Assembly (NCBI RefSeq): GCF_009208075.1
Contig: NZ_WFKJ01000026.1
Coordinates: 1-40,937 of the forward strand
DNA from: Poseidonibacter ostreae
GTDB lineage: Bacteria > Campylobacterota > Campylobacteria > Campylobacterales > Arcobacteraceae
Reading direction: 5' to 3'
Length of the DNA: 40,937 nt
Part shown: in pieces, positions 5,391-35,286 of the stretch
Layout: every line of letters starts with the position of its first letter
How positions within the stretch are numbered: position 1 is the first letter of the stretch
Made by a program: the position numbers and the translations under genes
The notes under the pieces: generated by a model
The model's database searches: none
Seen by the model: the letters and a program-made list of their open reading frames with translations, nothing else
Told to the model about the DNA's origin: nothing

Positions 5391-5556
5391 AAGAAAATAG
5401 TACGGAGGTGTAAATGACGAAGGTTTCACATTTTTAGTATTGTTACAAACTAAGATAATAATTTAAATCACTGTGTAGTGATAAGTTAAATAAATGTTTT
5501 ATTTAACTAAGTATTTAAAAAAGGGAGATTAACTTTTAGTTAACTCCCTTTTTTTA
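5391..5556 (+). ncRNA. Candidate small RNA or leader with a 7-codon ORF
   Basis: Between a TGnTATAAT promoter and an intrinsic terminator lies about 165 bases of RNA with visible structure. Near the 5' end is a very strong ribosome site (GGAGG, 5404-5408), five bases before an ORF of seven codons, MTKVSHF (5414-5437). Two hairpins follow: a 5-bp stem at 5468-5481 (TCACT/AGTGA) and an 11-bp stem with a 3-base loop at 5484-5508. The terminator closes the unit. The DUF4344 gene starts 31 bases after it with no convincing promoter of its own, so this may be either a free small RNA or an attenuating leader of that gene. It does not look like tmRNA, SRP RNA, RNase P RNA or 6S RNA. Confidence 0.5.
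5523..5556 (+). terminator. Intrinsic terminator of the structured RNA
   Basis: GGGAG pairs with CTCCC and TTAAC with GTTAA around a TTTTA loop, with one bulged A, followed by a run of seven T. An A-rich tract precedes the stem, so it could also stop transcription on the other strand. Confidence 0.85.
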
Positions 5557-32875: not shown

Positions 32876-33502
32876 TTATTGCTTAAATTTTTGATAAATT
32901 TTACTTTCTAACTCTTCTATTGTTTCAATAGCACCTTCTTCATGATTTGAAAATCCCCAGTTAACTAAAACAGAATCAACTCCAGCACTATTTGCTGCAA
33001 GTATATCTTTATGTGAATCTCCAATCATTTGGGCATTTATATTCGTAATACTATGTTTATTTAAAATCTTATTTACCATTTCTGGATGTGGTTTAGGGTT
33101 TGTAACACTATCATAACCTAAAATAGTAGAAAAATTAGCTCCAATTCCTACATGGTCTAACATCTTTTTTGCATACTGTGAATTCGCATTTGTAGCAACA
33201 GTTAAGATGAAATCATCTTTTAAATCATCGATTAGTTTTGCAATTCCATCATAAAGTACTAAGTCTGTTAAACAGTGTTCATTATAATACTCTTCAAAAA
33301 GTTTTGTTTGTTGTTCTGTAAACTCTTTTGTACCATAAAAGAACTCTGAAGAGTTTAAATGAGGCTCATTTACTTTCTCTAGAATATAATTTTTCTCTAA
33401 TCTTTCAAAACCAAGATTTTCTCTTACATAATTTATTGTATTTGTAATAGCAAAGCCACTATCTATCAAAGTTCCATCCATATCAAACATTATTAAACGC
33501 AT
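32876..33502 (-). CDS. HAD-IA family phosphatase, Gph-like
   Basis: A 208-residue haloacid-dehalogenase-type hydrolase. Motif I is MFDMDGTLIDSG (nucleophile Asp8 in most numberings, here about residue 6), motif II is TVATNANS, the conserved Lys is in NPKPHPEMV, and motif IV is IGDSHKDILAANSAG. A helical cap lies between motifs I and II. It resembles phosphoglycolate phosphatase and related housekeeping phosphatases; the substrate is not fixed by sequence. An AGGATA ribosome site and a minus-strand TATAAT at 33532-33537 precede it. Confidence 0.9.
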   Translation of the reverse strand: MRLIMFDMDGTLIDSGFAITNTINYVRENLGFERLEKNYILEKVNEPHLNSSEFFYGTKEFTEQQTKLFEEYYNEHCLTDLVLYDGIAKLIDDLKDDFILTVATNANSQYAKKMLDHVGIGANFSTILGYDSVTNPKPHPEMVNKILNKHSITNINAQMIGDSHKDILAANSAGVDSVLVNWGFSNHEEGAIETIEELESKIYQKFKQ

Positions 33503-33537: not shown

Positions 33538-33643
33538 TGATTAAAAATAAAAAGTAAGATTAAAATTTTTACTAAAATTGAAAAACTAATAGAATATAGG
33601 ACAAAAAGTATCTTGATTTAACAAATATTTAACAAAGTATTGT

Positions 33644-33649
33644 TATAAT
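33644..33649 (+). promoter_or_regulatory. Extended -10 promoter of the CCUCC-loop RNA
   Basis: TATAAT at 33644-33649 with TG at 33641-33642 is the same extended -10 as upstream of the RNA at 5391. Transcription would start near 33656. Confidence 0.6.
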
Positions 33650-33655
33650 ACGAAA

Positions 33656-33777
33656 CAATTTAGGGTATTACTAGATTAATCCTCCTACTAAACTGATTAT
33701 ATACAAGATTAGTATCCTATATACTATTATAATAAATTTGAATGCGGCTTCACAAATCTTTGTGAAGCTTTTTTTTT
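33656..33777 (+). ncRNA. Candidate trans-acting small RNA with CCUCC loop
   Basis: About 120 bases of RNA run from an extended -10 promoter to a strong terminator, with no ORF that has a ribosome site. TAGGGTATTACTA (33661-33673) can pair imperfectly with TAGTATCCTA (33710-33719), so that CCTCC (33681-33685) lies in the enclosed loop. An exposed CCUCC is complementary to Shine-Dalgarno sequences, as in known repressor RNAs with C-rich seed loops. Within the window, AGGAGGA at 35090-35096 is a seven-base match. The NosL-like gene starts 28 bases after the terminator but has its own possible -10, so this is more likely a free RNA than a leader. It is not similar to any housekeeping RNA I recognise. 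Confidence 0.6.
33747..33777 (+). terminator. Intrinsic terminator of the CCUCC-loop RNA
   Basis: GCTTCACAAA and TTTGTGAAGC form a 10-bp stem (33747-33756 / 33759-33768) followed by nine T. The T run merges into TGTATAAT (33777-33784), a possible -10 for the next gene. Confidence 0.9.
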
Positions 33778-33805
33778 GTATAATAACAATCTTGGAGTTT
33801 ATCAA

Positions 33806-34309
33806 ATGAAAAAAATCTTACCTTTCTTAACAATCGTAATAATAATAGCAGTAATCGTAATAATATTTTTATCAATGTCTAATAAAAAACAAATGGTCGT
33901 AATTCATGAGGGTAATCATACTCATCAGCCTGTAAATATTAAACATGATCATTTTCAAGATACTCAATGTGGAATGACAATTACTCAAGATGATAATTCT
34001 GCACAAGCAGTATCTCCTGATGGAAAAACATGGTTTTTTGATGATGTTGGATGTTTAGTTCTTTGGTACAATAATATAAAATTTAAAGAAAAAGCTACTT
34101 TATGGGTATTTTCAAACGATACAAAAGAATATATAAATGCAAGAGAAGCTTGGTATAGTAGAACTGAAAGAACACCAATGGGATATGGTTTTGGTGCATA
34201 TAAAGAAAAACAAGAAAAATTCATAGGTTTTGAAGAAGTTGTTTTAAAAATGATTAGAGGTGAAAACCTTACAAATCCATATATTAGAAAAGAATTAGTT
34301 GGTAAATAA
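33806..34309 (+). CDS. NosL-like copper-binding accessory protein
   Basis: With ATG 33806 (GGAG nine bases upstream) the protein has 167 residues; the in-frame TTG at 33776 lies in the terminator T run and is rejected. One N-terminal membrane helix (about 4-24) precedes a periplasmic domain with a His-rich start (HEGNHTHQPVNIKHDHF), then CGMTI and WFFDDVGCLVLWY. The CGM and DDxGC motifs are those of NosL-type Cu(I) chaperones. No nitrous oxide reductase gene is seen, so it may serve another copper enzyme such as a terminal oxidase. Its stop overlaps the next ATG, so the two genes form a unit. Confidence 0.75.
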   Translation: MKKILPFLTIVIIIAVIVIIFLSMSNKKQMVVIHEGNHTHQPVNIKHDHFQDTQCGMTITQDDNSAQAVSPDGKTWFFDDVGCLVLWYNNIKFKEKATLWVFSNDTKEYINAREAWYSRTERTPMGYGFGAYKEKQEKFIGFEEVVLKMIRGENLTNPYIRKELVGK

Positions 34310-35019
34310 TGGAAACAGTTAGTATTTTAACAATTATTTCCATTGCTTTTTTAGGCTCTTTTGGACACTGTGTTGGAATGTGTGGTGGTATTGTAATCGC
34401 ATATTCTAGTACAAAAATTAAAAGTACTTGGTCAAAAAAACTACAAGCTACTGTTCATTTATTATACTCATTTGGAAGAATTACAACTTATACAATTTTA
34501 GGTGCTTTATTTGGTCTTGTTGGTGGTGTTGTTACTTTTGATAATTTAACTAGCGGTATTTTACTTCTAGTAACTGGTTCAATGATGATACTTATTGGTT
34601 TATCATTGATGGGAAAAATAAAATTTCTTACAATTTTAGAGCATTCATGTTCAAAATCTCCACTTTATCAAAATACTTTTAAATCATTAATTGGCTCAGA
34701 TTCACTAATGAGTTTTTATTTATTAGGAATGTTAAACGGACTTTTACCTTGTGGGTTTGTTTATGTATTTGCAATAACAGCTGCAAGTACAGGAAGTGCT
34801 TTTTGGGGTGCTTTTGTAATGTTTATCTTTGGATTAAGCACATTGCCTGCACTTTTTTCACTTGGCTTTTTTATAGGCTTATTTAAACAAACTAATTTAA
34901 GAGACTTATTTATAAAATTAGCATCTTTTTTAGTTATTGGCTTTGGTATTTATATTGCTTATTTAGGCTATGAATACATAATAGATCCAACAAAAAGTAT
35001 CTTAAGCTGTCATATTTAA
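34309..35019 (+). CDS. TauE/SafE (UreH/DsbD_2-like) membrane protein
   Basis: A 236-residue protein with six predicted membrane helices. The first carries GSFGHCVGMCGGIVIAYSS, and the middle NGLLPCGFVYVF, the paired Cys motifs of the UreH/DsbD-2-like branch of the sulfite exporter TauE/SafE family. Related proteins are linked to metal transport or thiol electron transfer for cytochrome oxidase maturation. Its one-base overlap with the NosL-like gene supports copper handling, but the transported species is inferred. A hairpin terminator covers its stop. Confidence 0.8.
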   Translation: METVSILTIISIAFLGSFGHCVGMCGGIVIAYSSTKIKSTWSKKLQATVHLLYSFGRITTYTILGALFGLVGGVVTFDNLTSGILLLVTGSMMILIGLSLMGKIKFLTILEHSCSKSPLYQNTFKSLIGSDSLMSFYLLGMLNGLLPCGFVYVFAITAASTGSAFWGAFVMFIFGLSTLPALFSLGFFIGLFKQTNLRDLFIKLASFLVIGFGIYIAYLGYEYIIDPTKSILSCHI

Positions 35020-35059: not shown

Positions 35060-35100
35060 CCCGATAATTATTACAATAAAACTTTTTAAAGGAGGAATAC

Positions 35101-35286
35101 ATGATTAGTAAATCAAAAAAATATTTTACAATTTTTGGAATATTAGCAGCTACTGTTGATAAAAAAATGCAATCTTTAAACTGCATGATAGATGCTATTT
35201 TACATAGTAGTAAACCCAGAATAACAAAAATATTACTAGCAAAAGAATTAAAACCCATAAATCTAGATTCAACAAATAAAATATAA
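35101..35286 (+). CDS. 61-residue small protein heading the B12 operon
   Basis: The ATG follows AAAGGAGGA at ideal spacing, the strongest ribosome site in this region, and a promoter lies just upstream. The protein starts MISKSKKYFTIFGILAATVD, has two Cys-free halves apart from Cys28 (in SLNCMIDAIL), is basic and has no clear membrane helix. It lies 22 bases before the btuB-like gene. I do not recognise a family. It may be a true small protein or an efficiently translated leader whose translation sets expression of btuB. No minus-strand alternative is convincing. Confidence 0.62.
   Translation: MISKSKKYFTIFGILAATVDKKMQSLNCMIDAILHSSKPRITKILLAKELKPINLDSTNKI

Follow-up and report, generated by a model that had tools for sequence, protein, structure and literature searches.

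A small RNA (sRNA) gene of about 120 nt at positions 33656–33777 of a contig from Poseidonibacter ostreae (NZ_WFKJ01000026.1, positions 1–40,937; herein the window, meaning the whole 40,937-nt stretch, in whose coordinates positions are given) very probably encodes a stand-alone, trans-encoded regulator that is dedicated to ccoN of the cbb3-type cytochrome c oxidase operon and represses its translation; we infer both its expression and the repression. An initial annotation of the window had described the element as a trans-acting repressor with an anti-Shine-Dalgarno (anti-SD) loop and had named two targets within the window. The mechanism finds strong comparative support, and the named targets give way to ccoN, which lies on another contig.

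A Conserved sRNA Gene in Arcobacter-Type Bacteria

The genome holding the window (G000) was compared with its own genus (g1; 10 genomes, G000 included), a second genus (g2; 31 genomes) and a family set of 104 genomes. The 5′ end of the sRNA is placed from the −10 box and its 3′ end from the terminator, which gives the following parts:

33641–33649, plus strand: extended −10 element TG-T-TATAAT (TGTTATAAT), aligned in relatives
33656–33777, plus strand: sRNA gene, about 120 nt, conserved, 137.9 bits with covariance model R2
33661–33669, plus strand: 5′ arm of the stem closing the anti-SD loop, UAGGGUAUU, from the fold of the 5′ domain and a helix-pairing count
33680–33691, plus strand: pairing site A, TCCTCCTACTAA, fully complementary over 12 nt to TTAGTAGGAGGA, the ccoN Shine-Dalgarno region
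33697–33707, plus strand: pairing site B, TTATATACAAG, fully complementary over 11 nt to CTTGTATATAA of the ccoN leader
33711–33719, plus strand: 3′ arm of the closing stem, AGUAUCCUA, from the same fold and count
33746–33777, plus strand: intrinsic terminator, a 10-bp stem (33746–33769) followed by a T run, from a terminator scan and compensatory stem changes

The TGnTATAAT promoter, the transcript devoid of a ribosome-bound open reading frame (ORF), the 10-bp terminator stem with its T run and the stem enclosing CCTCC, all described in the initial annotation, are each recovered here. No plus-strand ORF of at least 30 aa lies inside the transcript, and the terminator is the sole match of the scan across 2.7 kb (chance expectation 0.5). 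The closing stem comprises 9 bp around the exposed CCUCCUACUAA (mean unpaired probability in the ensemble, 0.81), with CCUCC in the open loop; this stem is present in the centroid fold, and the minimum free energy structure of the whole transcript favors other weak pairs. With its own promoter, an intrinsic terminator and no coding sequence, the element has the attributes of a bacterial trans-encoded antisense sRNA. Rfam 15 returned no match anywhere in the window at the gathering score and only chance-level matches at a relaxed threshold. The fold of the whole transcript (z = −2.35) owes its significance mostly to the terminator, and the 5′ domain stem of the G000 copy alone does not outperform shuffled sequences (z = 0.09). 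The structural features in the G000 sequence alone are thus weak, and we judge the element to be more than chance because it is conserved. A reading of the minus strand, with TAGTAGGAGGA as a Shine-Dalgarno sequence, was dropped: the sole minus-strand frame of at least 30 aa (a 44-aa TTG ORF, 33671–33805) starts upstream of TAGTAGGAGGA, and the terminator has its T run on the plus strand.

All 10 of the g1 genomes carry the element in a DNA search (the window itself, seven at 88–95% identity, and G002 and G005 at 68%). Three segments are retained in their alignment: a direct repeat preceding the −10 box, loop AATCCTCCTACTA with its stem arms, and the terminator; AATCcTCCTACTA is near-invariant, as are the stem arms and terminator. 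The same plan recurs in other genera, where it is seen upstream of NosL-like homologues. The stem reads UAGGRUA/UAUCCUA in g1, g2 and g5 and GAAAAUUAAA/UUUAAUUUUC in g10, around an identical loop CUCCUACUA, such that the CUCCUAC loop is retained between genera despite a replaced stem sequence; this replacement carries no formal score because no column-wise alignment of the two stem types is possible. Within two groups, 99% and 96% of the cells of both helices can pair, versus 33–61% with the partner slid, and in 15 sequences the corresponding figures are 98.8% of helix cells versus 33–51% in slid controls; the double-sided (compensatory) changes fall mostly in the terminator stem. A covariance search of relatives, suggested in the initial annotation, finds the loop and a stem kept while the downstream neighbor changes, the reverse of the loss of loop and stem beside conserved neighbors that had been named there as grounds for rejection.

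Covariance models match in 53 of the 104 family genomes, a few of these matches being rejected on inspection. Model R2, whose training set includes the window copy that scores 137.9 bits, matches in 10/10 g1 genomes, 29/31 g2 genomes (all but G026 and G027, whose assemblies are fragmented), g5, half of g10 and, with weak matches, g17. Model R1, in which the terminator is the sole structure (MAFFT misaligned the two stem types) and which was used as a sequence profile, added with inspection further g10 genomes, a degenerate copy in g14, and g16, and the g3 copies were located via the promoter repeat; the sRNA is hence found in at least six Arcobacteraceae genera besides g1 and g2. Weak matches in G042, G060, G075, G080, G084, G086 and G091 were dropped, as they covered mainly the terminator and had no promoter repeat and loop. 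Scanned for an exact pattern, a collection of 84,980 species of bacteria and archaea yielded 12 loci, all in Arcobacter/Aliarcobacter or other Campylobacterales. Judged by this comparative record, the stretch encodes a real, conserved sRNA gene of Arcobacter-type bacteria.

ccoN as the Predicted Target

G000 contains the loop's complement, the 11-mer TAGTAGGAGGA, at four places: in the sRNA itself, at two sites without a start codon behind them, and 5 nt before an ATG. That ATG opens a 488-aa protein, CcoN (TIGR00780, E = 1e-207), and the ORFs after it, identified by eye as ccoO, ccoQ and ccoP, complete a ccoNOQP operon for a cbb3-type cytochrome c oxidase. The sRNA (contig C76 of G000) and ccoN (contig C91) are located apart, as expected of a trans-encoded regulator and its target. 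Pattern matching at start sites gave exactly one match to GTAGGAGG-N3-9-ATG in G000, namely ccoN, and across the ten g1 genomes ccoN is the sole recurrent match, present in nine; no ccoN was found in the tenth, G005. By this pattern, ccoN is the only conserved start site that matches the loop seed.

The loop and its neighboring nucleotides are predicted to pair with the ccoN start region at −30.0 kcal/mol, versus −8.1 ± 3.5 kcal/mol for 155 start regions, a null that is drawn from stretches of the same genome, includes ccoN and is enriched for near-matches; the next-best start reached −20.5 kcal/mol, and two starts other than ccoN (L098 and L106) come to about −20 kcal/mol. The two targets proposed initially, the ribosome site of the B12 operon (35090–35096, ORF at 35101) and a site at 5391, reach −14.9 and −11.5 kcal/mol, respectively, against this −30.0, and are ordinary AGGAGG-type matches. 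The ccoN duplex consists of two perfect blocks, one joining the loop to the Shine-Dalgarno sequence (UUAGUAGGAGGA) and a second (AUAUACAAG/UUAUAUACAAG), at 33697–33707 and absent from the initial annotation, joining the sRNA to the leader just upstream. In g2 the stem arm pairs too, across AUGCAAA, and in many species stem nucleotides pair over the AUG. Compared with dinucleotide-shuffled leaders, the native pairing has a z of −5.5 in G000 (0/500 shuffles as good), −5.6 in G025 and −4.6 in G092.

We read the ccoN leader at 80 places across the family (L112–L191). Just upstream of site B, most of the family has AAGTGAC-N5/6-GTGACTT (e.g., G000:C91:42010–42060, minus strand), which could be a direct repeat for a regulator or an RNA hairpin interrupted at its center by a G·G mismatch. 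A second ccoN copy, present in each of G002, G035 and G039 (L163, L135 and L164), lacks the site and pairs poorly; in such genomes one oxidase could run under control of the sRNA and another outside it.

Co-variation of the sRNA and the ccoN Leader

Complementarity to the ccoN translation start is conserved with compensating changes on the two sides, a diverged leader often being accompanied by a changed sRNA. The g16 ccoN leader contains ACTTGATATATAAAAAATTAGTAGG, matched by AATTTTTTATATATCAAG in the g16 sRNA, and the perfect complement extends over 23 nt in G092 and 15–16 nt in G087, G088 and G090. In part of g2 the leader sequence TTAGTAGG has changed to TTTGTAGG or similar; five sRNAs from that part carry CCTACAA in place of CCTACTA, and none with CCTACAA faces an unchanged leader. 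The changed loop in G025 has a 15-nt perfect complement, AATTTTGTAGGAGGA. Cognate pairs are more stable than permuted ones (matched in 0/20000 permutations with 56 species and in 1.2% with seven genus representatives). Among genera with TAGTAGGAGG in the ccoN leader, 8/9 have the sRNA, as opposed to 0/8 of those without it (Fisher p = 0.0004), a count from which the leaders of three genera are excluded and which is uncorrected for phylogeny or for falling search sensitivity.

The G092 copy (L269, ~1475–1550, sRNA strand) has lost the CUCC part of the loop and has its 23-nt pairing upstream of the Shine-Dalgarno core instead. This pairing is a predicted alternative route to the same target.

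Several observations weigh against a dedicated ccoN repressor. The permutation and genus tests are not fully corrected for shared ancestry, and the ccoN Shine-Dalgarno sequence is strong and would be kept anyway. In several species (e.g., G093, G068 and G024) the cognate pairing is no stronger than the noncognate, in part of g2 ccoN has changed with no matching change in the sRNA, leaving 9 nt, and in g3 (G041) the pairing is less distinctive (z = −2.5; 8/500 shuffled leaders equally good). G044 of g4 has the ccoN site, and no sRNA was found there by model and pattern searches; absence from other genera likewise comes from model and pattern searches, which weaken with distance. A G044 candidate (L295, −36 kcal/mol) was dropped because it lies inside a coding region.

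Alternative Explanations

The alternative that survives best, and which we nonetheless consider unlikely, is a broad anti-SD sRNA with many targets, of which ccoN would be just one. Any strong Shine-Dalgarno sequence can pair with CCUCC, and L098 and L106 reach about −20 kcal/mol; however, with an 8-nt seed ccoN alone recurs across g1 in a pattern search that covered strong seeds, and the complementarity reaches far past CCUCC, into the ccoN leader and the AUG. An activating or mRNA-protecting role, in which pairing would stabilize the ccoN mRNA or open its leader (AAGUGAC…GUGACUU), draws on the conserved possible hairpin that adjoins site B. We regard it as improbable, since the duplex covers the Shine-Dalgarno sequence and often the AUG, an arrangement that blocks 30S binding by established mechanism.

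A further alternative concerns the genes that flank the sRNA in the window:

32876–33502, minus strand: HAD-family hydrolase gene, divergent (PF13419, 3e-36), context only
33806–34309, plus strand: NosL-like membrane-anchored protein, 167 aa, NosL-like by eye, the downstream neighbor in g1 and not in all carriers, context only

The NosL-like protein has no Pfam or NCBIfam match. The terminator ends 28 nt ahead of the next start codon in g1, and most g1 and many g2 genomes share this order of genes, as would be expected if the sRNA were the 5′ leader of a NosL-like operon with the terminator acting as a regulated attenuator. A cis-acting riboswitch or attenuator would be constantly associated with its downstream gene, whereas the downstream gene here differs among carriers: the NosL-like gene is not beside the sRNA in G002, which has a DsbD_2-like gene instead, and the sRNA precedes an FtsX-like permease in g16 and a small Cys-rich protein in g3. 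The divergent HAD gene, in contrast, lies upstream of the sRNA at every locus read for it (the window, G002, g16 and g3; loci L009, L262 and L300). Because the HAD gene is constant while the downstream gene varies, we take the sRNA to be an independent gene and not a leader; no conserved alternative anti-terminator pairing was seen, and an attenuator would leave the pairing with ccoN unexplained, making this explanation very improbable. Finally, that the element acts by binding a protein or some other partner, its match to the ccoN Shine-Dalgarno site being coincidental, is scarcely credible, for although one 11-mer match to such a site in 3 Mb is not improbable by itself, chance would not account for the co-variation (including the 23-nt perfect complement in G092 with its diverged leader) or the two-block duplex.

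Promoter and Proposed Mechanism

Upstream of the −10 element is a repeat that the initial annotation did not mention:

33617–33634, plus strand: direct repeat TTTAACA-N4-TTTAACA with an 11-bp period, likely an OmpR/PhoB-type response regulator box in place of a −35 element

The TTTAACA copies (33617–33623 and 33628–33634) stand 10 nt ahead of the −10 box, and a pattern search found the combination of repeat and −10 box once in G000, at the sRNA. The TTTAAC repeat is kept in g1, g3, g5, g10, g14 and g16, plus G010 and G028 of g2, and is replaced in most of the remaining g2 genomes. The OmpR-family sites of HP1043/HsrA and CiaR read TTTAAG-N5-TTTAAG; compared with the HP1043/HsrA (CosR) box, the sRNA box TTTAAC-N5-TTTAAC has equal spacing and differs in its sixth base, which is C instead of G. 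A regulator of the OmpR/PhoB type probably activates transcription at this repeat, in response to a physiological signal that we likewise infer.

We hypothesize that, once transcription has been turned on from TTTAAC-N5-TTTAAC, the RNA would end in its terminator with CCUCCUACUAA held open in the loop above the stem. The loop would then pair with the ccoN Shine-Dalgarno region and the second block with the leader just upstream, the site B pairing needing a ccoN leader of about 50 nt that contains CUUGUAUAUAA. A duplex over the Shine-Dalgarno sequence and start codon would block 30S binding, a step we propose because known anti-SD sRNAs act so, and less CcoNOQP would be made. Hfq-dependent sRNAs occur in hosts that encode Hfq, and PF17209 has no match in G000 (the control search was positive in 5/14 reference genomes, Escherichia coli and Bacillus subtilis included); Campylobacter jejuni is likewise without Hfq. 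More tentatively, and as a possibility we hold at somewhat less than an even chance, this one-target, two-site antisense sRNA may have tracked the cbb3 leader through the Arcobacteraceae radiation without Hfq, acting post-transcriptionally within a response-regulator circuit that sets the level of high-affinity oxygen respiration (e.g., under oxygen, copper or redox stress).

Relation to Known Systems

As a kind, the anti-SD antisense sRNA is known; the present family and its dedicated target appear to be new. To our knowledge, the sRNA is unrelated in sequence to RepG of Helicobacter pylori, and we would expect no sequence relation to the streptococcal CiaRH-dependent small RNAs (csRNAs). The csRNAs (PMC3091779) are alike in their small size, their terminator stem-loop, an unpaired segment with complementarity to the Shine-Dalgarno sequence and AUG, and a promoter in which an 11-bp direct repeat, TTTAAG-N5-TTTAAG, stands 10 nt ahead of the −10 box. 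They differ in belonging to another phylum and in numbering several per genome, whereas the sRNA here has one copy and one conserved target; csRNA promoters, moreover, have NTTAAG-N5-TTTAAG with an invariant G, whereas the repeat here is TTTAAC-N5-TTTAAC. CJnc230/FlmE of C. jejuni (PMC11187230) is likewise a Campylobacterota sRNA whose anti-SD motif directly represses translation at ribosome sites; however, its motif is CCUU in a single-stranded stretch, it is cut from the flgE transcript and it targets flgM and Cj1387c, whereas the sRNA here has its own promoter, a CCUCCUACUAA loop and ccoN as its predicted target. The rhizobial alpha-r14/NfeR1 sRNAs (PMC10746234) share the design of an ultraconserved anti-SD loop (CCUCCUCCC) on stems whose sequence varies, but have three hairpins with the motif in each, as opposed to one hairpin here plus an extended, ccoN-specific second block. 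RepG (PMC8295292), from the same phylum, also targets one mRNA leader, though a different one.

A search of the available literature returned no Arcobacter sRNA aimed at the cbb3 oxidase. An intergenic screen of Arcobacter sp. L left some unnamed Arcobacter-only motifs, among which the sRNA may have been sighted earlier. If the proposal is true, Arcobacteraceae would widely share this regulator of a central respiratory enzyme, here in a genome where Hfq was not detected, and the sRNA would offer a clear natural example of sRNA–mRNA co-evolution; with partner changes visible across genera, the mechanism, any accessory factors and the evolution of specificity beyond generic anti-SD pairing would become testable.

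Other Features of the Locus

One further candidate element lies upstream of the promoter:

33598–33614, strand not assigned: imperfect palindrome AGGACA-N5-TATCTT, candidate regulator site

The palindrome is kept in most of g1 and in g2 and g5 relatives (GATAAAATTTATC in G013) and is absent in g10; it is possibly a regulator binding site. Its half-sites look like the sRNA stem arms AGGATA/TATCCT. Downstream of the sRNA, the NosL-like and DsbD_2-family membrane proteins encoded at 33806–35019 look like copper or cytochrome assembly factors; such a role would be in keeping with a connection to the cbb3 oxidase.
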